Counted from the first letter of the stretch, positions 28,482 to 43,694 are shown. The stretch is 64,000 nucleotides of DNA from Natronococcus amylolyticus DSM 10524 (GCF_000337675.1 NZ_AOIB01000043.1:28433-92432), one strand, 5' to 3'. Numbers and translations: made by a program. The notes: generated by a model not told the origin, from the sequence alone.

Positions 28482-29495
28482 CTACTCGTCGTCTCGGTCC
28501 CGCTCGCGTTCGGCCCGCGTAATCTGCTCGAGCCGGCGGCGCTGTTCGCGGTGCAGCGTTACGAGCATGTCCGAGAGCACGCCGAACATGAGCAACTGCA
28601 CGCCGAGCAGAATCGCGGCCGCCGAGACGACCGCCAGAATCTCGTGGCCCTGCTGGTACTGGATCCACTGCCAGAGGACGTACATCGCCACGACACCGCC
28701 GGAGGCGATGCTCGCCGCGCCGAGGCTTCCGAAGTAAAACAGCGGGTTGTTCGTCTTCGCCAGCGAGTACAGTGCCAGCACGATCGTCCCGCCGTCCCTG
28801 AGCGGGTGGAGGTTCGTCTCCGAGGCCTCCGGCCGAGCGCTGTAACTGACCGGGACGACCGTCGTATCGACCCCGTGTTTGACGCACTCGACGGCGAGTT
28901 CGGTCTCGATCGTGAACCCGTCCGAGTCGAGCGCGAGGCGTTCGAACGAGTCGGTCGTAAACGCCCGGTATCCCGAGAGGATATCCTCGTACTCGGCGCC
29001 GTGAATCAGCCGAAACGAGCGGTTGATCAGTCTGTTTCCGAACCCGTTCAGCGCCTTCATCGCGTCGTCGTCCATGTCTGCAAACCGGTTTCCGATGACG
29101 TGTTCGTACCCCCGCGAGAGCGGCTCGAGCATCCGTTCGGCGTCGGCCGGATCGTAGGTGCCGTCGCCGTCGACCATCAGTACGTACGGGACGGTGACGT
29201 ACTCGAGGGTCTCTCTGACGGCCTGGCCCTTCCCGTTGCCGGCCTGGGTGAACACCTGGGCGCCTCGCTCGCGCGCGATAGTGCGCGTCTCGTCGTCGGA
29301 GTCGCCGTCGACGACGACGACGTTCGAGTACCCCTGTTCGCGGAAGCCGTCGATCACGCCGCCGATCGTCGCCGCCTCGTTCAGCGTCGGGATGAGGATA
29401 CAGACCTCGTCGGTCGAAATATCGCGCGTCCGTTCGCTCATCGACAGGAACGCCTCCCGCTCGAGCGTCGACGCGCGGACCCCGTCATGCTCCAT
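28482..29495 (-). CDS. aglJ: Dolichol-phosphate hexosyltransferase AglJ (GT2)
   Basis: 337 residues. GT2 catalytic domain: VCILIPTLNEAATIGGVIDG, VVVVDGDSDDETRTIARERG, the DxD-type motif MVDGDGTYDPADAERML, and EDILSGYRAF. The C-terminus has two membrane helices (SLGAASIASGGVVAMYVLWQ; LAVVSAAAILLGVQLLMFG). This matches AglJ, which adds the first hexose to dolichol phosphate in archaeal N-glycosylation. A TATA element (AATATATTTTT, about 30 bp before 29495) supports the long start; a second ATG at 29441 precedes the domain directly. Confidence 0.85.
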   Translation of the reverse strand: MEHDGVRASTLEREAFLSMSERTRDISTDEVCILIPTLNEAATIGGVIDGFREQGYSNVVVVDGDSDDETRTIARERGAQVFTQAGNGKGQAVRETLEYVTVPYVLMVDGDGTYDPADAERMLEPLSRGYEHVIGNRFADMDDDAMKALNGFGNRLINRSFRLIHGAEYEDILSGYRAFTTDSFERLALDSDGFTIETELAVECVKHGVDTTVVPVSYSARPEASETNLHPLRDGGTIVLALYSLAKTNNPLFYFGSLGAASIASGGVVAMYVLWQWIQYQQGHEILAVVSAAAILLGVQLLMFGVLSDMLVTLHREQRRRLEQITRAERERDRDDE

Positions 29496-29564: not shown

Positions 29565-30944
29565 CTACGATCCCACTATGGAGACGATGTGCTGGCGCAT
29601 CCGCCCGTCGATCGGGATCTTCGCACACCGCTCGTCGAGACCGATCGTCTGGAGCAGGAGACTCGAGTCGTCGAGCAGGGAGAGCTGGAGGTAGGTGCCC
29701 TCGCGGTAGCCGTCGCTGGTCCTGGTCATGTTGATGATCTTCAGCGTCTCGTACTCCCGGAGCTGGTCGGTGATGCGTTTCTTGCCGAGGACGTTGGCGT
29801 CGATCGCCTCGGCGAACGCGCGGTAGACGCGGTACATCTCGGTGGCCTTGAACGCCGAGCGCTCGGAGAACTCGTCCATCGTCGCAAGCGCTGCGATCGC
29901 GATCTTCGCCTGCGTGGGACACCCTCTGATAAGATCCTGGATCCGGGTCACCTCGGCGTCGTCGTTTGCGACTCGGACGTGGCTCTCCGTGACCTGGGCG
30001 GCGTCGTTGTCCCTGGCGACCTCGCCCGCGAGCCGGAAGAGATCGATCGCCCGACGTGCGTCGCCGTGTTCCTGAGCCGAGAAGGCCGAACACAGCGGGA
30101 TGACGTCGTCGGTCAGCACGTTCTCGCGGTAGGCGTCGCGCCGGCGCTCGAGGATATCCCCGAGCTGGTTTGCGTCGTAGGCCGGGAAGACGATCTCGTC
30201 AGGCGAGAAGGAGCTCTCGACGCGAGTGTCGAGTCGGTCGCCGTACTTCAGGTCGTTGCTGATCCCGATCACCGTAATACTCGCGTCGACGTCGTTCTCC
30301 TCGCCCGCTCGCGAGAGCTGCATGAGGAGTTTGCTGTCGTCGGCCTCCTCGGGCGGGACGTTCTCGACGTCATCGGGCGGGGCGAGCCGGTCGATCTCGT
30401 CCAGGACCACGATGATCGCGTCGTACAGTTCGTCGATGACCGACCAGAGCCGATCGTAGTACGCCCCCGTCGCGATCCCCGAGTGCGGGATCGTGATCCC
30501 CGTCTTCTCGGGTTCGTTCAGGCTCTTCGCGAGGTGGATGACCGTCTGGACCTCCGAACGGCGCTGGGCGCAGTCGATGACCGCTCGGCCGATCCGGACG
30601 TCGTTCTCGAGGCCGCGGCCGACGACCTCGCGGCTGACGTAGCGGGTGACCAGCGTCTTCCCGGAGCCCGACTTTCCGAGCAGGAGCGTTCCCTTGCCCG
30701 TTCCGCCGGTGATCGTCGGCTTGAGCCGTCGGGCGACGGTCTCGATCTGGTTGTTCCGACCGACGATCTTGTTCTGGTCGGGGACGTGGTCGATCCGGAG
30801 CAGATCCTCGTTCGCGAAGATCCGATCTTCCTCGTCTAACACCGAGAGCGGATCGTCGCGAGACTTGGAGCGGGAGTGGGCGACCGCGCCGTGCTCGGCG
30901 GCGTACTCGCCGAGCGTCCCCGTCCCCTCCGCGTGCAAAGGCAT
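29565..30944 (-). CDS. Orc1/Cdc6 replication initiator
   Basis: 459 residues from ATG 30944; the longer open frame crosses origin repeats and is not used. AAA+ domain with Walker A LLLGKSGSGKTLVTRYV, Walker B AIIVVLDEIDRLAPP and sensor 1 ITVIGISNDLKYGDRLDTRV. The C-terminal winged helix (FSERSAFKATEMYRVYRAFA and DQLREYETLKIINMTRTSDG) binds origin boxes. It directly abuts a set of ORB-like repeats, one of them overlapping its own start region. The product should bind these repeats, load MCM and repress itself. Confidence 0.96.
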   Translation of the reverse strand: MPLHAEGTGTLGEYAAEHGAVAHSRSKSRDDPLSVLDEEDRIFANEDLLRIDHVPDQNKIVGRNNQIETVARRLKPTITGGTGKGTLLLGKSGSGKTLVTRYVSREVVGRGLENDVRIGRAVIDCAQRRSEVQTVIHLAKSLNEPEKTGITIPHSGIATGAYYDRLWSVIDELYDAIIVVLDEIDRLAPPDDVENVPPEEADDSKLLMQLSRAGEENDVDASITVIGISNDLKYGDRLDTRVESSFSPDEIVFPAYDANQLGDILERRRDAYRENVLTDDVIPLCSAFSAQEHGDARRAIDLFRLAGEVARDNDAAQVTESHVRVANDDAEVTRIQDLIRGCPTQAKIAIAALATMDEFSERSAFKATEMYRVYRAFAEAIDANVLGKKRITDQLREYETLKIINMTRTSDGYREGTYLQLSLLDDSSLLLQTIGLDERCAKIPIDGRMRQHIVSIVGS

Positions 30945-30963
30945 ACACCGTCTTTCAGATGAA
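30945..30963 (-). repeat. ORB-like element 0 (partial, at orc1/cdc6 start)
   Basis: ACACCG-TC-TTTCAGATGAA on the plus strand differs from the consensus at two central bases and lacks the G-tract. It occupies the bases immediately before the initiator ATG (30944), overlapping the promoter, where binding would shut off transcription. Confidence 0.7.
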
Positions 30964-31053
30964 TTTTCCTTAGCTCTTTCCCTCCGCGAGCGGGGGTCAC
31001 TCGCGTCGAGTTCGCGTCGGAATCGAAGCCGCCCGAACACTGGTCGCGAGTCA

Positions 31054-31073
31054 CACACCGGATTTCAGATGAA
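31054..31073 (-). repeat. ORB-like element 1
   Basis: CACACCGGATTTCAGATGAA; core intact, no long G-tract. Spaced about 54 bp from element 2. Confidence 0.85.
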
Positions 31074-31099
31074 TCGCCGGCAAGGGGAGGGTCAGTGCT

Positions 31100-31128
31100 C
31101 CCCCACCCACACCGGATTTCAGATGAAA
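31100..31128 (-). repeat. ORB element 2 (full, with G-tract)
   Basis: Core CACCGGATTTCAGATGAAA preceded on the plus strand by CCCCCACCCA, i.e. palindrome plus G-tract on the minus strand. Identical in core to element 3. Confidence 0.9.
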
Positions 31129-31161
31129 TGCTGCGAAGCCGGGACCGATCTCGGACGAGTA

Positions 31162-31190
31162 CCCCCACCCACACCGGATTTCAGATGAAA
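31162..31190 (-). repeat. ORB element 3 (full, with G-tract)
   Basis: Same sequence as element 2 over the whole CCCCCACCCACACCGGATTT...GATGAAATG unit, 62 bp further on. Confidence 0.9.
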
Positions 31191-31343
31191 TGCCGCGAGG
31201 AAGGGGGTGGTGGGGGAGGGCTCGTGACGGTCGATCGACGGCTCGGCGTGGGGTGGATCTCCGGGAGACGACCGCGACCTGCGCTCGTCTCGAGTGCTTC
31301 TATGCCTCTGCTCGCGGACGATACAGTCCGTGAATCGGCGATA

Positions 31344-31365
31344 TCATCTGAAATCCGGTGTCGGG
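31344..31365 (+). repeat. ORB-like element 4 (inverted)
   Basis: TCATCTGAAATCCGGTGT followed by CGGG; opposite orientation to elements 0-3, reduced G-tract, first T bases of the palindrome not conserved. Confidence 0.85.
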
Positions 31366-31721
31366 TCGAAGAACGAACTCGAGACGCGAACACCCCGTGA
31401 CACCGACGAGAGCAATGCCTCGAGTCCCTCGATCCGGGTCCGTTTCTGGACGTAGAGGCGTAAGGTATAAACAGCAGAGAAGGATCGTCGTTCGATTTCA
31501 GAAACTCGACATAGAACGGTTGGTTCGGGATTGTCCCACTACACTACTACTACTAGATTACCACTAGAGTAAAGTATATAATAGAAGTCAGCGATCGTTT
31601 TAGACGAAACTCTCGTAGAGATCCGTAGGTCGTGTCTAGCACTCTCTGCACTCCTTAGCGCTCCTCGAGTTCGCTCGAGCCGGAGCCGTCGCCACCCCAC
31701 CCCCTCCCCACCTCCGACCGA

Positions 31722-31748
31722 TTTCATCTGAAATCCGGTGTGGGGGTG
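31722..31748 (+). repeat. ORB element 5 (inverted, full)
   Basis: TTTCATCTGAAATCCGGTGT followed by GGGGGTG, complete palindrome and G-tract in the inverted orientation, on the far side of the AT-rich stretch. Confidence 0.9.
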
Positions 31749-31867: not shown

Positions 31868-32599
31868 CTACTCCGGAATCGGTGCCTCGGCTTCCCGCAC
31901 GCGCCGTTCCGCTTCCTCCCGATCGTCCGGGTAGCCGACGTCGATCCGCCAGCCGTCCATGCGAATGGCGTCGATCGTCCGTCCCGACTGAATGAGGAGA
32001 TCGATCGCGTCGGGCAGTTCGTACTCGCCGCGATCGGAGGGCTGGACGAGGTGACAGGCGTGGAAGATCGCGGGCGTAAACGTGTAGAAACCGGTCATCA
32101 CGAGGTTCGACGGCGGCTCGTCGGGTTTCTCGACGACCTCGACGATCTCGCCGTACTCGTTGGTGTCCAGCACGCCGTACCGGGAAGCCTCCTCGTAGGG
32201 AACCTCCTCAACGAGGAAGGCGGCGTCCGCACGCTCCTCGTGCTGGCGCTTGATCACGTCCCCGAGGTTCCCCCGGAAGACGTTGTCGCCGAGCATGAGC
32301 ACGAAGTCGTCGTCGACGTGAGGCTCGGCCTGCAGGATCGCGTGAGCGAGCCCGAGCTGCTCGCGCTGGTGGGCGTAGGTGATCGGCACGCCCTCGTAGG
32401 CGTCGCCGTAGCGCTCGATGAGTTGCTCCTTCTGGTAGCCGACGACGACAACGAGTTCGGTGACGCCGATCTCGAGCAAGTTGTCGAAGACGTCCTCGAC
32501 GAGCGGCTTCCCGTCGACCTCGACGAGCGCCTTGGGTTTGTCCTCGGTGAGCGGCCGGAGGCGAGTCCCCTCTCCAGCGGCCAGTACGACTGCTTGCAT
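31868..32599 (-). CDS. aglF: Glucose-1-phosphate nucleotidyltransferase AglF
   Basis: 243 residues from ATG 32599 with a TATA-like element about 26 bp upstream. Nucleotidyltransferase start MQAVVLAAGEGTRLRPLTED then KPKALVEVDGKPLVEDVF, with YAHQREQLGLAHAILQAEP, VLMLGDNVFRGNLGDVI, VEKPDEPPSNLVMTGFY and WRIDVGYPDD. It makes UDP- or dTDP-glucose for the glycan precursor. Its place in an agl cluster favours AglF, but substrate is not certain from sequence. Confidence 0.87.
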   Translation of the reverse strand: MQAVVLAAGEGTRLRPLTEDKPKALVEVDGKPLVEDVFDNLLEIGVTELVVVVGYQKEQLIERYGDAYEGVPITYAHQREQLGLAHAILQAEPHVDDDFVLMLGDNVFRGNLGDVIKRQHEERADAAFLVEEVPYEEASRYGVLDTNEYGEIVEVVEKPDEPPSNLVMTGFYTFTPAIFHACHLVQPSDRGEYELPDAIDLLIQSGRTIDAIRMDGWRIDVGYPDDREEAERRVREAEAPIPE

Positions 32600-32710
32600 G
32601 TCCGAACAGTCTCCGCGAATTACCAAATAGTTTGTGTACGTGTGACGCGGCGCGGAAAGATGGCTGTCGCAACGAACCCGTGGCAACTCGAGACGCGTCC
32701 GATCCGCGTG

Positions 32711-33601
32711 CTACTCCGACACTCGAGGGCGAATGTCACCCGCGACCACGCGGAGATCGGGGTGGTTCGCGAACTCGCGATACTCCGCCGGAAGCGCCTC
32801 GAGGGAGTCCGCCGCCGCGAAGCGCTCGCGGATCGTCGCCCAGCGTTCGTGGCGAACGACGACGATGACGGGCACCGTCTCGAGGCCGAGCAGCTTCGCG
32901 ATCGACAGCCGGTGTTTCCCGGCGCTGAACCGAATTATCTCGCCGTTCCGGCCGATTCCGACGCGCATCTCGTGGGGGAACTCGGTCTCCAGGATCGACT
33001 TCGTCGCGGCGTTTCCGGTCTCCATCCCGTCGTCCCCGTGCTCGAGCAGTTCGGTCTGGGAGACGTACCCCTCCTCGGCCATCGAGTCGTAGAGAGTGTC
33101 GAGGTCGGCACACCGACGCTCGAGTTCATCGATCGTCGACGACCGCCAGTCCTCGAGGCCGTTCTCGACCTTGCAGGCGGCGTACCGGTACTTGACCGTC
33201 CGCTCCCAGGACTCGCCCTCGAGGAACCGGGCTTCGAGCGAGCGGTGGATCCGCGTCTCGGTCCACTCGGTTCGAAACCGATCCCAGCGGCCGCCGACGA
33301 CCCCGACGATCAGCTCGTCGTGTATCGGCGAGCGTTCGGTATCGCTGTCCTTCGTCGGGAAGTGTGCCTTTCCGAACCGCGACTGGTACCGAAGATCGGC
33401 GGGATCGATCTCGACGGTCGCCGGGAGATCCGACGCCGTCGGCTCGCCGGCTGCGCTCCGGTGACGGATCGCCCACCAGTAGCCGAACGCGCTCTCGTAT
33501 AGGTACTCGAGGGATCGGCCGAGCGCCCTGGAAACTCCCCCGAGCCGGTAGAAGGCCAGAAACTTCCGCCACGACGTGGCCAGTGCAGCGAGAAAGAGCA
33601 T
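32711..33601 (-). CDS. ParB/Srx-like domain protein, paralogue 1 of 3
   Basis: 296 residues from ATG 33601 (a TTG farther upstream is possible). N-terminal helices (FLAFYRLGGVSRALGRSLEY) precede a domain shared with the next two genes: VEIDPADLRYQ, GRWDRFR, HRSLEARFLEGESWERTVKY, LDTLYDSMAEEGYVSQTEL, and MRVGIGRNGEIIRFSAGKHR followed by LSIAKLLGLETVPVIVVVRH. The last block resembles the ParB/sulfiredoxin-type nucleotide-binding fold (G-x-H-R). Within the glycosylation cluster it may modify glycans or lipids. No catalytic activity is demonstrated for this family as far as I know. Confidence 0.75.
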   Translation of the reverse strand: MLFLAALATSWRKFLAFYRLGGVSRALGRSLEYLYESAFGYWWAIRHRSAAGEPTASDLPATVEIDPADLRYQSRFGKAHFPTKDSDTERSPIHDELIVGVVGGRWDRFRTEWTETRIHRSLEARFLEGESWERTVKYRYAACKVENGLEDWRSSTIDELERRCADLDTLYDSMAEEGYVSQTELLEHGDDGMETGNAATKSILETEFPHEMRVGIGRNGEIIRFSAGKHRLSIAKLLGLETVPVIVVVRHERWATIRERFAAADSLEALPAEYREFANHPDLRVVAGDIRPRVSE

Positions 33602-33764
33602 CTGGTAGTCGGCCTCGGAACCGCCGAGGTTCCCGGCGACTCCCGTTTCCTGTACGTCGAGCGCGATCGATCCGGGCAAAAAACTTCGGCGAGGACGGCG
33701 TTCACGTTGGATCCGGTGATTTAACTGAAGGACTCACTTACTAATACGTGAGGAAATCGGTAGA

Positions 33765-34700
33765 GTGAGCCTCGTACACAGATCGGGTCGAATACTCCGC
33801 GAGGACGGCGTTCTATCCCTGCTGTGGCGTTCCGTACGGTTCGTCTGGACGACGACCGTCTGGCGGCAGGAACTCGTTCAGCGGCTCCCAGTGTGGGCAC
33901 TCGAGTTCGCGTTCGATGTCCGCAGCCGGCTGCTGTTCAGCATGAGTGACGCGAACCCGGCCCGACCGATCATGATCGATCCCGACGAGATCGAGTACTA
34001 CCACGGGAGCGACGACCCGTGGCGGCTTGGACGCGTTCTCGACGGCGACTGGGACGAGCCCGAGGGACGGTTCGAGGAGACGGCCGTCTACCGGTCGCTC
34101 GAGGCCCGGTTCCTCGAAGGCGTCGACTGGGCGGAGACGGAGCTCTACACCGAGTACCGCGACCGCCTCGAGGCCGGCGATCCGTACTGGCGATGTACGA
34201 CGGAGGCGGAACTCGAGGCCTACTTCGAGCGGATCGACGACCTCTACGAGTCGATGGCCGAGGAGGGGTACCGCTCACAGCGGGAGCTGCTGGCCGACGA
34301 CGACGCCGACCCCCGCGGGGAGAACACCGACGCGGTCCACCCGGTCGTCCAGGAGATCGGCGTCAACGTCTACCGCGACGGCGAACTGGTCAAAAAGGGT
34401 GCGGGCTTCCACCGACTCGCGATCGCGAAGCTGCTCGACCTCGAGGAGATCCCGGTGACGGTGCGGGTCAGACACGCCGACTGGCAGGCGGTCAGAGACG
34501 AGATCCGCGCGGCCTCGTCACCCGAGGAGTTGGGCGACCGGGCGAGAGCCCACCTCGAGCATCCGGATCTCCAGGACGTCGTCCCCGAACACTGGCGGGC
34601 GTCGACGATCGAACCGACGGATCGTCCGGATCGTCCGGATCGCGAGGCGCCGCGGACGGACGATTCTGAGGACGACGACGTCCCGGTACCCCGCCGGTAG
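33765..34700 (+). CDS. ParB/Srx-like domain protein, paralogue 2 of 3
   Basis: 311 residues with GTG start 33765; TATA-like TTACTAATA lies 20-27 bp upstream, supporting it. N-terminus RSGRILREDGVLSLLWRSVR parallels the other paralogues. Core blocks: MIDPDEIEYYHG, GDWDEPEGRF, YRSLEARFLEGVDWAETELY, IDDLYESMAEEGYRSQRELL, and GVNVYRDGELVKKGAGFHRL followed by AIAKLLDLEEIPVTVRVRHA. The C-terminus is a short acidic, Pro/Arg-rich tail. Divergent from paralogue 1 and followed 54 bp later by paralogue 3. Confidence 0.75.
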   Translation: MSLVHRSGRILREDGVLSLLWRSVRFVWTTTVWRQELVQRLPVWALEFAFDVRSRLLFSMSDANPARPIMIDPDEIEYYHGSDDPWRLGRVLDGDWDEPEGRFEETAVYRSLEARFLEGVDWAETELYTEYRDRLEAGDPYWRCTTEAELEAYFERIDDLYESMAEEGYRSQRELLADDDADPRGENTDAVHPVVQEIGVNVYRDGELVKKGAGFHRLAIAKLLDLEEIPVTVRVRHADWQAVRDEIRAASSPEELGDRARAHLEHPDLQDVVPEHWRASTIEPTDRPDRPDREAPRTDDSEDDDVPVPRR

Positions 34701-34754
34701 CCGACACGCACCGAGCCAGCACGGTTAACTACCGCTGTCCGGAATCTCTCGGAC

Positions 34755-35471
34755 GTGTCCCATCTCCTCGCGCGGGTGAAAGAGATCTGGCGGCGAGACG
34801 GCGCTCTCGCGGTCGCCGACGAGACGGTCGCCCACCTCCGGTGGCGTCTCGAGCGCTCCGCGGCGTACGGAGCCGTCAAAACCCGCGAACTCGAGCTTCG
34901 GAACCGATACGTCGACGCCGATCCACTCGAGCTGACCTGGGTCGATCCCGCCGAGATAGAGTACGTCGTCGGCGAACTCGTCCCCGACGAGACCGACGAC
35001 TCGCACTTCGAACGGCCGAACGTCCCGGCCCAGGGGCGGGACGGGATCGGTGCCGTCCGCGGGGGCGAGTGGGACCGACCGACGGTTCCGTTCACCGACC
35101 TCTCGGAGTACCGGCTCTTCGAGGAGCGCTTTCTCGAGGGCGTCCCCTGGACCGAGACCGAGTTCGTCGACCGTCACCGCCGGTCTGCGGACTCAAACTG
35201 GTGCGAACGGAAGCTGGTGCACAAGCTCGAGCGCTTCGACGACCTCTACGAGACGATCGCGACGGCGGGGTACTCGAGCCAGCGCGAACTCGGCGGCCAC
35301 CCGCTGAACGAGATCATCGTCTACCTTGGCCGGAACGGCGAACTCCGGTGGCACGAGAACGGCCGCCACCGGCTCGCGATCGCGAAGCTGCTCGACCTCG
35401 AGTCGGTACCCGTACTGATCACGGTTCGCCACCGAAAGCTGCTCTTTCCGGGCGAACAACCCCCTCGTTAA
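34755..35471 (+). CDS. ParB/Srx-like domain protein, paralogue 3 of 3
   Basis: 238 residues, GTG start 34755. Blocks: RVKEIWRRDGALAVADETVA, WVDPAEIEYVVGELV, GGEWDRPTVPF, FEERFLEGVPWTETEFVDRH, FDDLYETIATAGYSSQRELG, IIVYLGRNGELRWHENGRHR followed by LAIAKLLDLESVPVLITVRH. It is the shortest paralogue and ends soon after the RH motif. Its stop overlaps the convergent GT2 stop in TTAA. Same expected role as its two neighbours; function unknown. Confidence 0.75.
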   Translation: MSHLLARVKEIWRRDGALAVADETVAHLRWRLERSAAYGAVKTRELELRNRYVDADPLELTWVDPAEIEYVVGELVPDETDDSHFERPNVPAQGRDGIGAVRGGEWDRPTVPFTDLSEYRLFEERFLEGVPWTETEFVDRHRRSADSNWCERKLVHKLERFDDLYETIATAGYSSQRELGGHPLNEIIVYLGRNGELRWHENGRHRLAIAKLLDLESVPVLITVRHRKLLFPGEQPPR

Positions 35472-36403
35472 CTCCCGGAGCGGTAGCTCTCGAGTCGGCT
35501 CGCGAACACCGCGAGCCGGCTCTTCACCTCGAGCACGCCCAGTAACGCCCTGCAGCCGACGCTGGCCGCCCAGTAGTAGAGGGTATATCGCACGTTTCCG
35601 GGATCGATCGCCAGCGCGTGCCTGAGATAGGCGGCCGCCGACTCCCGTCGTCCGCTCTCGGCGTAGATGATTGCGACGTTCGCCGCGAGCTCGGCCCGCC
35701 GTCGTCGGCCGACGTGTTCGCCATGTCGCTCGAGGACTCGTCTGTATCCCTCGAGCTTGCGCTCGGGATCCGTTCCGATCCGCTCGCCGTCGGTGTGGCG
35801 GTCCAGGAGTAGCTCGGGGATGCCCCTGATCTCGGCGCCCTCGTCGGCCGCCAGCAGGCGCAGGTAGAACTCGTAGTCCTGGACGGCGGGCAGCTCCTCG
35901 TCGAGGGGGCCGACGTCGTCGAACGCCGACGCGCGAAACGTCGTCGCCGAGAAGCTTCCGACCGGGTTGCCCCGCCCGAGGTCCTCGAGTGTGACCCGTT
36001 CCTGTGCGCGGATAACGTCGTAGACCGCGCCGTCCCGGTGTTTCCGATAGGAGGTGTAGACGCCGCGGACTTGCTCGGGAGCCTCCTGAAAGGTCTCGAG
36101 AACGCGGGCGACGTGGGTCGACGCCAGTTCGTCGTCGGAGTCGAGAAAGGAGACGAACTCGCCGGTCGCCCGTTCGATCCCGCGGTTCCGTGCCGCGTTC
36201 GCCCCGCCGTTCGATCCGGTCTCGAGGACCTCCAGCCGATCGTCGTCGCACGAATCGAGGACCGCGTCGGTCCCGTCGGTCGAGCCGTCGTCGACGACGA
36301 TCACCTCGAGGTCGTCGGCCGTCTGTGCGAGCGCGCTGTCGATCGCCCGACCGACGACCGACGCGCGGTTGTACGTCGGGATCACGATGCTGACCGCGGG
36401 CAT
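35468..36403 (-). CDS. Family 2 glycosyltransferase
   Basis: 311 residues from ATG 36403; a much longer open frame upstream on this strand is a shadow of the plus-strand gene. PAVSIVIPTYNRASVVGRAI, VIVVDDGSTDGTDAVLDSC, ARNRGIERATGEFVSFLDSD (DxD) and LPAVQDYEFYLRLLA are GT2 motifs. A helical C-terminal region (ESAAAYLRHALAIDPGNVRY) looks TPR-like. Probably adds a sugar to the dolichol-linked or S-layer glycan. Confidence 0.9.
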   Translation of the reverse strand: MPAVSIVIPTYNRASVVGRAIDSALAQTADDLEVIVVDDGSTDGTDAVLDSCDDDRLEVLETGSNGGANAARNRGIERATGEFVSFLDSDDELASTHVARVLETFQEAPEQVRGVYTSYRKHRDGAVYDVIRAQERVTLEDLGRGNPVGSFSATTFRASAFDDVGPLDEELPAVQDYEFYLRLLAADEGAEIRGIPELLLDRHTDGERIGTDPERKLEGYRRVLERHGEHVGRRRRAELAANVAIIYAESGRRESAAAYLRHALAIDPGNVRYTLYYWAASVGCRALLGVLEVKSRLAVFASRLESYRSGS

Positions 36404-36475: not shown

Positions 36476-37369
36476 ATGACGACCGTTTCGATCATCACGC
36501 CCGTCTACAACGACTTCCCGGGACTCCGCGAGACGGTCGACTCGCTTGCGGCTCTCTCGACGGAGATTGACTGGGAGCACGTCGTCGTCGACAACGGTTC
36601 GACCGACGGCACCCGTGAGCGCGCCGAGCGCTACGTCGCGGATCAGCTCGGGGGCACCGTCCTGCTCGAAGACGAGATCCAGTCCTCCTACGCGGCCCGC
36701 AACGCAGGCGTTCGACACAGCGGCGGCGACGTTCTCGCGTTCGTCGACGCCGATATGACCGTTCCCGAGGGGTGGCTCGAAGACGCCCTCGACGCCTTCC
36801 GGGCCGCGGACGCCGACTACATGGGTTGTAACGTCGAACTCGAGGTTCCCGACGGCCCCTCGCTCGCCGCCCGCTACGACCACCACTCCGGCTTTCCGGT
36901 CGGCCACTACCTCGAGCACCAGCGCTTCGCGCCGACGTGCTGTCTGTTTGTCCGTCGCGAGGTCTTCGCCGACGTCGGCCTCTTCGATCACCGGCTCACC
37001 TCGGGCGGCGACAAGGAGTTCGGCAACCGGGTCGACGAGGCGGGGTACGACCTCCACTTCGCCGACGACGTCACCATGCACCATCCCGTCCGGGATTCGA
37101 TTCGTGCGCTCGTCCGGAAGGATCTCCGCGTCGGCCGGGGGCTCTGCCAGCTCCAGCGCTACCACCCGGATCGGTACGGGACGCCCGGAATCCCGCCCCG
37201 TCCCTCGGGCGTCAAACAGCCCGACCCCGGCCTCGAGCGGCGGGAACGGCTGGCCTTCGGCGCGCTCGAGACTGCGCTGACGGGCGTTCGCGGGATCGGC
37301 TACTACCGCGAGTACCTCGCCAGGAAACGAGGACGCGAGCTGGGCGGGATCCCCTCGCTCGCCGAGTAG
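36476..37369 (+). CDS. Family 2 glycosyltransferase
   Basis: 297 residues. TTVSIITPVYNDFPGLRETV, VVVDNGSTDGTRERAERYV, ARNAGVRHSGGDVLAFVDAD (DxD), LFVRREVFADVGLFD and SGGDKEFGNRVDEAGYDLHF identify GT2. C-terminal region is basic and probably membrane-associated. Divergent from the preceding GT2; part of the same glycan cluster. Acceptor and donor unknown. Confidence 0.9.
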   Translation: MTTVSIITPVYNDFPGLRETVDSLAALSTEIDWEHVVVDNGSTDGTRERAERYVADQLGGTVLLEDEIQSSYAARNAGVRHSGGDVLAFVDADMTVPEGWLEDALDAFRAADADYMGCNVELEVPDGPSLAARYDHHSGFPVGHYLEHQRFAPTCCLFVRREVFADVGLFDHRLTSGGDKEFGNRVDEAGYDLHFADDVTMHHPVRDSIRALVRKDLRVGRGLCQLQRYHPDRYGTPGIPPRPSGVKQPDPGLERRERLAFGALETALTGVRGIGYYREYLARKRGRELGGIPSLAE

Positions 37370-39625: not shown

Positions 39626-40585
39626 TCAGGCGGCCGACGCGTCCTCGAGCTCCTCCCGAACGAGCGCGTCGTCGGACTGCACAAGTCCGTACAGGTAGCC
39701 GAAACCGACCGCTGCGGTGAACACGAAGATTGCGACCAGCTGTTTAACCTTCGAGCTCGAGGGTTCACGTCCAAGGTCCCGGAGCCGTGAGGGAACGAAC
39801 TCGAGCATGAGCCGTCGGAGATACTCGTTCTTGTCGCCCGCGGCTTCGGGCAACAGGAGGTCCATGATCCGCTTGGAGTACCCTTGCCAGAACGAGCGAA
39901 AGACGAGCCACCGGAACTCGCCGCGGTAGTCGAACAGTTTGTGGTTCACGACGGCGTCCGTGTTGTAGATCACACCCTTGCCGTACCGGTTCGCCATCCG
40001 GATACAGACCGGGGCCTCGTGGGCCTGGATGTGGCGGTCGCCCTTCCGCCCCGTGTTCTCGTCGTAGCCGCCGACATCGAGGAAGACGTCGCGACGAAAG
40101 GAGATGTTCGAGCCGTAGGTGTTGCGCAGCTCTTCCATATGCTCGCCCATCCCGCGCTCGTCGCAGCCGACGAGCCAGTAGAACTCTTCGGGGAAGAAGT
40201 CAGGCTTCTCGGTGACCCAGTCGGGTTTCGCGTGCCCTCCGACCGCGATCGCGTCGGTCTCCTCGTAGACTCGGGCGAGCTCCGCGATCCAGTCGGGTTC
40301 GGCAACTGCGTCGTCGTCGATAAAGGCGACGACCTCGCCGCTTGCGATCTCGGCCCCTCGAGTGCGACTGTAGGAGATCCCCCGATTCTCGTCGTTGCAG
40401 CGGAGGACGATCTCCTCGCGGTCCCCGTACTCCTCGCGGACGCGCTCGTAGACGGCCTCGTTGCCGTCGACGACGATCACGACCTCGAGGTCGTCGTACG
40501 TCTGTGCGAGCACGCTGTCGACACACTCCGAGAAGACGTCGTAGCGCTCTATCGCGTACGTACAGACGACGGCGGAGACCTTCAT
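39626..40585 (-). CDS. aglG: GT2 glycosyltransferase, AglG-like (glucuronosyltransferase)
   Basis: 319 residues from ATG 40585. VSAVVCTYAIERYDVFSECV, VIVVDGNEAVYERVREEYG, ISYSRTRGAEIASGEVVAFI then DDDAVAEPDWIAELARVYEE and YGSNISFRRDVFLDVGGYDE; C-terminal membrane helix LVAIFVFTAAVGFGYLYG. The sequence recalls AglG, which adds glucuronic acid to the lipid-linked glycan; close relatives (AglE, AglI) cannot be excluded. Divergent from aglB and probably co-regulated. Confidence 0.8.
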   Translation of the reverse strand: MKVSAVVCTYAIERYDVFSECVDSVLAQTYDDLEVVIVVDGNEAVYERVREEYGDREEIVLRCNDENRGISYSRTRGAEIASGEVVAFIDDDAVAEPDWIAELARVYEETDAIAVGGHAKPDWVTEKPDFFPEEFYWLVGCDERGMGEHMEELRNTYGSNISFRRDVFLDVGGYDENTGRKGDRHIQAHEAPVCIRMANRYGKGVIYNTDAVVNHKLFDYRGEFRWLVFRSFWQGYSKRIMDLLLPEAAGDKNEYLRRLMLEFVPSRLRDLGREPSSSKVKQLVAIFVFTAAVGFGYLYGLVQSDDALVREELEDASAA

Positions 40586-40730
40586 CGGGAGACCCGTTTC
40601 GATGAGGGGAGAATAAACTTTGTCGTCGGTCTCGGATCCCGACCGAGTAGAACTATCCACTGACTATGAAAGTAAAATAATCTGGGTGGTATGAGAAAGC
40701 TTATTCGTGGCTTCCCTCTCGTGAAACCTA

Positions 40731-43694
40731 ATGAGTACGGAGACCGAACGAGCCGAGGAGCGGACGGAATCGTCCGTCCTCGGCTCGTGGGCGGAGTGGT
40801 ACCACGTCCCGGTCGTCGGGGCCGTGATGCTGTTTATGTTTTGGGTCAGGACGCAGTCGTACGAGGCCTTCGTCACCGAGGACGGCACCCCCGCGCTCGC
40901 GGGCGTCGACTCCTGGTATCACTGGCGGACGATCCAGTGGACCGCCGAGAACTACCCTCGGACGATGCCGTACGAGGTCTGGACCGGCTTCCCGACGGGC
41001 AACTACGTCGGTCAGTTCGGAACTCTCTTCGACCAGCTGATCGTCACCGCCGCGATGATCGTCGGTCTCGGGGATCCATCCTCGAGCACGCTCTACACCG
41101 TCTCGCTGCTCGCGGTGCCGGCGATGGCGGCGCTGGTCGCGATCCCCGTCTTCTATCTCGGCCGACGGCTGGGCGGGACCGTCGGCGGACTCGTCGCCGT
41201 CGTCCTGCTGGCGCTCGCGCCCGGCCAGTTCCTCACGCGAACCACCGCGGGTCAGCTTCAACACCACGTCGCAGAGGTGCTGTTCATGGCGATCGCCGTC
41301 CTCGCGATGATGGCCGCACTGCGGGTCGCCGAGCGCGAGCAGCCGATCTACGAACTCGTCGCCGACAAGAACTGGGACGCGCTCCGACAACCGACGATCT
41401 ACGCCGCGCTGGCGGGGGTCGCGCTCGCGCTGTACATCTGGGTCTGGCCCCCCGGCGTCGTCCTGATTGGGATCTTCGGCGTCTTCTTCGCGGTTCAGCT
41501 CTGTCTCGACTACGTCCGGGGGATCTCTCCGGACCACGTCGCGTTCGTCGGCGCCGTCTCGCTGGGCGTGACCGCGGTCGCGACCGCCCTCCTGATCGAG
41601 GAGCCCGGCACGAGCGTCACGAGCTTCGGCTACCTCCAGCCGGGCACCGCGGCGCTGGTCGCCGTCGGCTGTCTGTTTATGGCCTGGTTCGCCCGCCAGT
41701 GGAACGCCCGCGGGATCGATCGCCGCATCTACCCGGGCGCGATCGCCGCGCTGATCGTCGGCGCGTTCGCGGTCATGTGGCTCGTCCTGCCTGACTTCTA
41801 CGACACGCTTGTCGGAAACCTCACGGGACGACTCATCCCGCTCGACCCCGACGCGGGAACGCTGACGATTCAGGAGGCCCAGCCACCCGATGACTTCACG
41901 GCCCACGTCTTCGGCGAGTTCGGGACCGCGTTCTACACGATGCTCGCCGGACTCGCGCTGCTGGTCGTCCGACCGCTGTTCGGCCGCGAGTACCGCGCGG
42001 AGTACACGCTGATCCTCGTCTGGTCGCTGTTCCTGATCAGCATGTCCGCAACCCAGATCCGCTTCTCGTACTACCTCGTGCTCGCGGTCGCCGTGGTCAA
42101 CGCCGTCTTCGTCGCCGACGTCCTGCGGCTGTTCGACCTCGACCTCCAGCGCGGCGCGCGCTCGCTCGAGGGAGTCGAAACTTACCAGCTCATCATCCTG
42201 CTCGTGGTCGTTCTGCTCCTGTTCGCGCCACTGCTGCCCGTTGTCGCCGCCGACGGCGACACCGCGATCGACCGCGGCGAGGCGACGGGGCCACACCCCG
42301 ACGCGATGGTCTGGGAGGAGTCGACCCACTGGCTCGAGTCGAGCACACCCGAGCCGGGTAACTACGGCGACGCCGACTACGCCGACGAACTCGAGTACTA
42401 CGGCAGCTACGACTACCCCGACGGCGGGGACTTCGACTATCCCGACGGCGCCTACGGCGTGATGTCCTGGTGGGACTACGGCCACCTGATCACGACCCAG
42501 GCCGAGCGGATCCCCCACTCCAACCCGTTCCAGCAGAACGCCGAGACCGCCTCGGCGTTCCTGACCGCCGAATCCGAGCGGGAGGCCGAACTGATCCTCG
42601 AGGCGATCGCGACCGGCGAGGACCCGCTCGACGGTGACGACGACGTGCGTCCGCTCGAGGAGCTCGAGGCGACGGTCGACGACGACGCCGACGAGCAGAT
42701 GCGGTACGTGATGATCGACGACCAGATGGCGGGCGGGAAGTTCAGCGCGATGACCGCCTGGTCGGGTCCCGACTACGACCACTACGTCACGCCCGACGTC
42801 GAGCCCGGCGAGGAGATCGACCGCGAGGACGTCGACGAGCGCCTTGAGGTTCCCTACGAGGACACGATGGTCGCGGGTCTCTACTTCGACGACGCTGCGG
42901 GGATGGAGAACTACCGGCTCGTCCACGAGAACGACCAGCGCCAGGCCGGCTTCGTCAGCTACGCGCTGATCGACCCCGAGACCGATCAGGTGCTCACCGA
43001 CGAGACCGGCCAGCATCAGGTCGCGATCAACCAGCCCCTCGACCAGCAGACGGAGGTCCAGCTCTCGCAGTTCGAGCAGAGCCCCGACGTCGACGTCGAG
43101 TACGTCGACGAGCGCGAGGGTGCCGGCGTCAAGACCTACGAACGCGTCGATGGCGCGACGATCGTCGGCACCGCCGACGCCGACGAGGGGACGGCGGTGA
43201 CCGCCGAACTCGAGCTCGACTCCGGCGTCGACCGCGGCACGTTCACCTACGAGCAGGACGCTGAAGTCGACGAGGACGGCGAGTTCGAGCTGACGGTACC
43301 GTACGCGACCGACGACGAACTCGACGTCGAGGACGGCTACACCGAAAGCGCCGTCGAGGCCGTCGACGACTACACCGTGACCGTCGAGGGCGAGACACCC
43401 CAGCAGGGCGACCTCGAGGTTCCCGAGAGCGCGGTCATCGAGGGCGACACTATGGAGGTCGACCTCGAGGAGACGGAACTCGAGGACGCCGACGATACCG
43501 AGAACGGCGCCGACGATGCGGGCGCTGGCGAGGACGATGACGTCGACACCGCCGACGATGGTGAGGATGCCAACACCGCTGACGTCGACGAGAATGATGA
43601 CGCCGGCACCGCTGACGCCGACGATAACGACGAGGACGCCGACGACGATACCGCCGGCTCGCTCGTTCCGACTGCGGCCGGACTCGCGGACTGA
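40731..43694 (+). CDS. aglB: Oligosaccharyltransferase AglB (STT3)
   Basis: 987 residues. Twelve or so N-terminal membrane helices, with the first external loop D-x-D-like EDGTPALAGVDSWYHWRTIQ. The catalytic hallmark WWDYG sits in GAYGVMSWWDYGHLITTQAE. Soluble C-terminal domain ends in a long Asp/Glu/Ala tail (43470-43690) with repeated D-A-N-T-A-D/D-A-G-T-A-D units and PTAAG. It transfers lipid-linked glycans to Asn-X-Ser/Thr of S-layer glycoprotein and archaellins. TATA-like AGCTTATTC 24-33 bp upstream supports the ATG. Confidence 0.97.
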   Translation: MSTETERAEERTESSVLGSWAEWYHVPVVGAVMLFMFWVRTQSYEAFVTEDGTPALAGVDSWYHWRTIQWTAENYPRTMPYEVWTGFPTGNYVGQFGTLFDQLIVTAAMIVGLGDPSSSTLYTVSLLAVPAMAALVAIPVFYLGRRLGGTVGGLVAVVLLALAPGQFLTRTTAGQLQHHVAEVLFMAIAVLAMMAALRVAEREQPIYELVADKNWDALRQPTIYAALAGVALALYIWVWPPGVVLIGIFGVFFAVQLCLDYVRGISPDHVAFVGAVSLGVTAVATALLIEEPGTSVTSFGYLQPGTAALVAVGCLFMAWFARQWNARGIDRRIYPGAIAALIVGAFAVMWLVLPDFYDTLVGNLTGRLIPLDPDAGTLTIQEAQPPDDFTAHVFGEFGTAFYTMLAGLALLVVRPLFGREYRAEYTLILVWSLFLISMSATQIRFSYYLVLAVAVVNAVFVADVLRLFDLDLQRGARSLEGVETYQLIILLVVVLLLFAPLLPVVAADGDTAIDRGEATGPHPDAMVWEESTHWLESSTPEPGNYGDADYADELEYYGSYDYPDGGDFDYPDGAYGVMSWWDYGHLITTQAERIPHSNPFQQNAETASAFLTAESEREAELILEAIATGEDPLDGDDDVRPLEELEATVDDDADEQMRYVMIDDQMAGGKFSAMTAWSGPDYDHYVTPDVEPGEEIDREDVDERLEVPYEDTMVAGLYFDDAAGMENYRLVHENDQRQAGFVSYALIDPETDQVLTDETGQHQVAINQPLDQQTEVQLSQFEQSPDVDVEYVDEREGAGVKTYERVDGATIVGTADADEGTAVTAELELDSGVDRGTFTYEQDAEVDEDGEFELTVPYATDDELDVEDGYTESAVEAVDDYTVTVEGETPQQGDLEVPESAVIEGDTMEVDLEETELEDADDTENGADDAGAGEDDDVDTADDGEDANTADVDENDDAGTADADDNDEDADDDTAGSLVPTAAGLAD

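Follow-up and report, generated by a model that had tools for sequence, protein, structure and literature searches.

What are three adjacent genes for ParB/sulfiredoxin (Srx)-like proteins doing among the glycosylation genes of Natronococcus amylolyticus DSM 10524? The genes, here called A, B and C, lie within a 64,000-nt stretch of DNA (the window), and the original prediction, made from the sequence alone, was that their products modify glycans or lipid carriers, for example by phosphorylation, and do not partition chromosomes. The fold is known, whereas we found no earlier description of the family, of its cap or of the pathway context; open-licence papers, searched for ParB-fold proteins encoded among glycan genes, yielded none. 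The analysis presented below leads us to conclude that the family probably has a role in cell-surface construction, not in chromosome sorting, and what we observed supports a protein that binds nucleotide at the membrane surface and assists in assembling glycans and polar lipids.

Gene A, on the minus strand, is oriented away from B and C, which both lie on the plus strand (Table 1). Its open reading frame extends to 33679 with a TTG start, and the ATG at 33610 is the likelier start, which leaves a gap of approximately 150 bp between A and B. A promoter and terminator scan, run with a bacterial consensus ill-suited to archaea, found nothing. By BLASTP, A and B were 43% identical over 187 aa (E = 2e-39), B and C 41% (E = 7e-32), and A and C 33% (E = 3e-22), similarities far above chance, and the three proteins are homologues. 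The ordered blocks that had been proposed as common to them were present in each, with deviations that were greater in C, and were also found across 75 family members of <80% identity. In the order A, B, C, the first block reads IDPADLRY, IDPDEIEY and VDPAEIEY; the second GRWDR, GDWDE and GEWDR; the third RSLEARFLEGESW, RSLEARFLEGVDW and RLFEERFLEGVPW; the fourth LYDSMAEEGYVSQTEL, LYESMAEEGYRSQREL and LYETIATAGYSSQREL; the GxHR block GKHRLSIAKLL, GFHRLAIAKLL and GRHRLAIAKLL; and the last VPVIV, IPVTV and VPVLI, each followed by VRH.

Table 1. Features of the window and, under locus identifiers, the overlapping operon found in at least four genomes.
Feature	Position	Strand	Description
AglJ-like GT2 glycosyltransferase	28482..29495	-	PF00535
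AglF-like nucleotidyltransferase	31868..32686	-	Adjoins gene A; PF00483; AglF named in a relative's plasmid
Gene A	32711..33610	-	Predicted ParB/Srx-fold protein, 299 aa counted from ATG; orthologues in L008, L009
Gene B	33765..34700	+	Predicted ParB/Srx-fold protein, 311 aa; domain at residues 62-276 (AlphaFold2 models)
B residues 1-58	33765..33938	+	Basic amphipathic helices, predicted at 3-14, 16-38, 43-56
B residues ~81-146	34005..34202	+	Family-specific helical insertion, strand 1 to helix 1; GxWD 94-97, WxET 122-125
B residues 153-173	34221..34283	+	Helix and loop at the place of ParB Box I (C motif), ...IDDLYESMAEEGYRSQR (hhalign, VIA alignments)
B residues 214-217, GFHR	34404..34415	+	ParB Box II (P motif, GxxR)
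Gene C	34755..35471	+	Predicted shorter ParB/Srx-fold protein, 238 aa; without C-terminal HPDL tail
GT2 glycosyltransferase	35468..36400	-	Convergent with gene C; PF00535
GT2 glycosyltransferase	36476..37369	+	PF00535
GT2 glycosyltransferase	39626..40660	-	PF00535
AglB oligosaccharyltransferase	40731..43694	+	PF02516, PF22627, PF18079
Overlapping operon: DUF7475, family member, CDP-alcohol phosphatidyltransferase	L050:4865-6829, L058:4861-6765, L153:4222-6189, L154:4583-6490	both orientations	

The resemblance to the ParB/Srx fold, which had been read from the GxHR block, held up both in predicted structures and in profile comparison. AlphaFold2 modeled whole B with a pLDDT of 78.5 and the B domain with a pLDDT of 87.1 and a pTM of 0.85, and the top PDB matches of both models (Foldseek and VIA) were ParB, Noc, KorB, Srx, SerK and SbnI. 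The Foldseek lists for whole B and for the domain were uniform (Noc, ParB, KorB, PadC, Srx and SbnI), at weak E-values (best 0.05–0.06) that we think reflect the long insertion in the domain. With VIA-align, the first 32 rows for the B domain were all ParB, Noc, KorB, PadC, Srx, SerK, SbnI or ParB-like (Z = 3.0–5.4), and included the unnamed chain Atu1540. Independently of the models, comparison of the family profile with ParB_N domains using hhalign gave a probability of 94.8% (E = 5.2e-8, 100 columns), versus ≤0.27% for seven controls, namely the profiles of four unrelated glycan enzymes and three ParB profiles with shuffled columns; the alignment placed LYESMAEEGYxSQREL at the helix and loop of ParB Box I, as defined in PMC12704722, and GxHRLAIAKLL at Box II. 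On this profile comparison and the predicted structure, we take homology of the family to the ParB/Srx superfamily as shown.

Among the 75 members of <80% identity, R217 (the phosphate-binding arginine of Box II) and G206 were invariant (75/75 each), G214 was present in 73, and W96, D97, W122, T125, R204 and H237 were conserved at 91–99%. The tryptophans, the aspartate and the threonine fall in the helical insertion of roughly 65 residues (GxWD...WxET) that separates strand 1 from the Box I helix and looks like a ligand, acceptor-binding or active-site cap. In the ParB-fold binders tested, changing the arginine that corresponds to R217 to alanine abolished nucleotide binding (PMC12704722). The domain might instead have kept its fold and bind no nucleotide, the protein then being an adaptor, and the 2025 screen did detect no binding, in its conditions, for 17 of the 28 purified ParB-fold proteins (PMC12704722); but a disused pocket would scarcely have retained the Box II arginine and G206 in all 75 members of <80% identity, and we regard a dead domain as quite improbable.

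With the N-terminal CTPase domain of ParB and Noc (PF02195), the family shares the fold, the Box I helix and loop and the Box II GxxR arginine. Unlike ParB and Noc, it carries the insertion, has GxHR where ParB has GExR, sits in a glycan context and is missed by PF02195, which matched none of 41 members even at E = 1 and nothing in the N. amylolyticus genome itself. Box III (ENxxR), sought within 60 aa after Box II, was absent from all 70 members searched, whereas it was present in the four reference ParBs covering the place, including those of L083 and L112; its absence is usual in orphan ParB folds (PMC12704722). Neither a helix-turn-helix (HTH) nor a C-terminal dimerization domain gave a Pfam match in the 41 members, whose sequences end soon after the ParB-like domain. 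The proteins thus lack the architecture of partition proteins, as had been anticipated. A ParB-kind DNA partition or transcription protein could appeal to the fold and to a replication-origin-like array about 1 kb from A; set against the missing HTH, ENxxR box and PF02195 match, the lack of any ParA gene noticed in the neighborhoods read and the glycan genes near most member loci, this explanation seems extremely unlikely.

The glycan association was tested against control regions taken at arbitrary positions in the same genomes, with genes called by an amino-acid composition score. Counting flippase, epimerase, GT2, GT4, GT61, MocA-type and STT3 genes, we found glycan genes within 5 kb in 24 of 33 member loci and in 1 of 20 control regions (Fisher p = 9e-7). 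A second locus set, which contributed no seed to the model, gave 11/14 on its own (p = 1.3e-5), and Pfam tallies agreed with this enrichment; the counts support the proposed link to glycan genes. Some members (L147, L136 and L139) fall outside recognized glycan loci. The L147 copy (L147:4992-5825), on contig C39 of the N. amylolyticus genome, adjoins genes that read as GHMP-kinase-like and PhoU-like.

Lipid-phosphate genes formed a second recurrent group of neighbors. In a clade of six members, a gene for DUF7475, a domain of unknown function, was nearby in all six and a CDP-alcohol phosphatidyltransferase gene, with a complete D..DG..AR..G...D...D motif, in five, the reading frames overlapping in four (Table 1). 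PAP2 phosphatase genes adjoin or lie near relatives of B in Natronorubrum and Natrononativus. None of these lipid-phosphate genes, CDP-alcohol transferase or PAP2, occurred in the 20 control regions, and within the window no CDP-alcohol transferase or PAP2 gene adjoins A, B or C. Elsewhere in the phylum, one member has a CDP-glycerol glycerophosphotransferase-like gene (Glyphos_transf) on one side and, on the other, genes reading as a nonulosonic-acid-type pathway that includes a cytidylyltransferase, while another member adjoins AglB.

The family resembles SerK and SbnI in fold, its GxHR block is similar to the DGHHR block found in archaeal CBS-ParB relatives, and on our favored reading it would also share with them a small-molecule chemistry that involves no DNA: SerK is an ADP-dependent free serine kinase (PMC5120207), and SbnI, for which we rely on its citation in PMC12704722, is a kinase acting on free serine. 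Unlike SerK, the family has a membrane-type N-terminal extension and a glycan context, and no residue could be aligned with SerK Glu30, since the PDB alignments begin after it and the insertion replaces that stretch. The SerK model NF053625 reached one of the 41 members at E = 0.069 and none significantly, and we rejected SerK orthology, as 59 haloarchaeal genomes held no SerK-family match over the cut-off.

Sulfiredoxin, which activates a sulfinate by phosphorylation, shares the fold and the G-x-H-R block. Its catalytic cysteine position was Arg, Lys, Gln, Asn or another residue in 69 of 70 members, on which ground sulfiredoxin activity was rejected; the one exception among those checked, a member from elsewhere in the phylum (L133:2574-3404), reads GGCHR with an Srx-type cysteine. 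The same residues bear on a non-kinase ParB/Srx-fold enzyme that would, for example, transfer CMP or AMP to an alcohol or carboxylate, or activate a carboxylate or sulfinate. Neighbors that use CDP- or CMP-linked substrates, the Srx fold matches and the GGCHR member suit such an enzyme, but with cysteine found at that place only once in 70, and with no nucleotidyltransferase of the ParB/Srx fold known to us, we consider it unlikely.

The N-terminal helices had been described as membrane-associated, and this stood in a weaker form, namely as basic helices in 65/70 members and not as transmembrane helices. Residues 1–58 of B have a net charge of +4, against −35 for the rest of the protein, and a maximum KD19 of 0.80, so that this part of B contains no transmembrane helix. 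Across the family, the extension carried on average +11 net charges per 100 residues, whereas the first 60 residues of other proteins from the same genomes carried −9.8 per 100 and were positive in only 2/51; a segment with the hydrophobicity of a transmembrane helix occurred in only 2/70 members. Given this basic charge and the few hydrophobic stretches, the N-terminus is better termed a basic amphipathic surface anchor, and we infer that it binds the membrane.

An N-terminal membrane helix is also known from Noc, a CTP switch whose amphipathic helix targets it to the membrane (PMC8429893), and the basic helices of the family may act likewise. The main rival to the reading that we favor is a Noc-like, nucleotide-controlled membrane switch or scaffold, in which nucleotide binding would release or present the N-terminal helices and so recruit or regulate glycosyltransferases, a flippase or phosphotransferases, with no glycan chemistry of its own. 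Noc is among the best fold matches, the extension is basic in nearly all members, and several paralogues beside different enzymes would suit regulators or scaffolds, as would a fusion of the family domain to Methyltransf_24 (PF13578) on a phage-like contig of a virus collection (L083:7890-9293), which suits a control module; a canonical ParB gene lies about 5 kb from this fusion. A switch fits less well with the absence of Box III from all 70 members searched, with the lack of a recognized dimerization domain or HTH, and with the large conserved insertion and its near-invariant W, D and T residues, which resembles a ligand or active-site cap. We hold the switch to be plausible but on the unlikely side; if correct, it would be the first nucleotide switch known to us that is tied to archaeal glycan assembly.

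Resemblance at the GxHR block alone does not separate a kinase from a switch or a nucleotide-binding scaffold. Our favored reading, which we put forward tentatively as one that may be right, is that the proteins are phosphotransferases which depend on a nucleotide and would act, at the membrane surface, on a sugar, alcohol or lipid-phosphate intermediate. Three points lead us to favor phosphoryl transfer. Sulfiredoxin aside, the small-molecule reactions known for this fold are those of two kinases, SerK and SbnI; the conserved insertion resembles a cap for binding an acceptor; and the products of the partner genes work on phospho-alcohols. The protein would take part in building surface glycans and polar lipids at the cytoplasmic face of the membrane, docking on anionic lipid through its N-terminal helices. 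It would bind nucleotide at GxHR, hold a sugar, an alcohol or a lipid-linked intermediate with the insertion and its WD and WxET residues, and phosphorylate a hydroxyl of this acceptor from the nucleotide, much as SerK and SbnI act on free serine. The product might then feed a CDP-alcohol or glycerophosphate-type transferase or a phosphate-bearing glycan, a neighboring PAP2 enzyme could reverse the step, and several paralogues per genome would correspond to several acceptors. Counting against this reading are the unmatched SerK Glu30, the absence of adjacent lipid-phosphate genes in the window, the weak Foldseek E-values and the members outside recognized glycan loci. The ParB/Srx fold also serves non-kinases, such as CTP switches, as often, and three paralogues in a locus, with up to 12 in a genome, are many for one enzyme activity.

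The fuller form of the proposal we offer as a possibility, somewhat more doubtfully: the family would be a new class of membrane-surface ParB/Srx-fold kinases with a family-specific cap, diversified into several substrate-specific paralogues, and would phosphorylate the sugars, alcohols or lipid carriers that archaea use in assembling glycans and polar lipids. If the family does have kinase activity, glycan or lipid intermediates would join serine and sulfinate, the only targets known for the chemistry of this fold. More broadly, the family suggests that the assembly of surface glycans and lipids in archaea includes a nucleotide-dependent step still missing from the known pathway. The ParB fold has come to be regarded as a general NTP-binding module. 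In their survey of the ParB-CTPase fold, Kaljevic et al. (2025; PMC12704722) showed for a wide range of settings that orphan ParB folds bind CTP, ATP or GTP. That survey used PF02195 at its gathering cut-off, and since all 41 members miss even E = 1 with this model, the family lay beyond its reach.

The family is widespread among haloarchaea. A profile built from A, B and C found it in 73/125 genomes of the same taxonomic family, and a 41-sequence profile found it in 110/292 genomes and 43/77 genera of the class; beyond the class, it occurred in three of the other genomes drawn from the phylum (L133, L134-135 and L136). Annotated copies were called "hypothetical protein" wherever annotation was seen, and plasmid copies likewise or not annotated at all. 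No Pfam or NCBIfam model recognized the family, whether searched with single proteins or with the 41 members, and no PDB entry matched by sequence or profile. The TIGR03667 match of B (E = 0.008) was dismissed as chance, as it covered mostly the N-terminal helices and occurred in one member only. Several ParB-like PHROG families gave weak, repeated matches to the GxHR block, each in at most 8 of the 41 members. A phage origin was rejected, with no match among 50,697 phage records, as was a plasmid origin, the plasmid matches being confined to haloarchaeal plasmids.

Within N. amylolyticus we counted seven matches, namely A, B and C, one on contig C39, two on C31 and one on C36. One of the two on C31, a short fragment of about 48 aa around GKHR (G000:C31:242861-243004, L007), is perhaps a remnant. 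The suggestion that A, B and C arose by local triplication failed, as a tree placing them in one clade was rejected (AU p = 2.5e-9). In a quick tree of 88 members, each grouped with its own Natronococcus orthologues and then with a different lineage, and on these sequences we read the locus as three old lineages brought together. The three genes are adjacent in the close relatives L008, L009 and L010 as well; in the last of these, Natronococcus sp. A-GB1, gene A is split by a frameshift (L010:7947-9053) and B and C are intact.

The glycan locus starts directly beside the origin-like array mentioned above (window positions 31054-31742), which itself lies next to an Orc1/Cdc6 gene (29565-31058, minus strand). 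The array contains CACACCGGATTTCAGATGAA three times in direct orientation (31054, 31108 and 31170), together with an exact inverted copy at 31723 and another, with two mismatches, at 31343, where none would be expected by chance.
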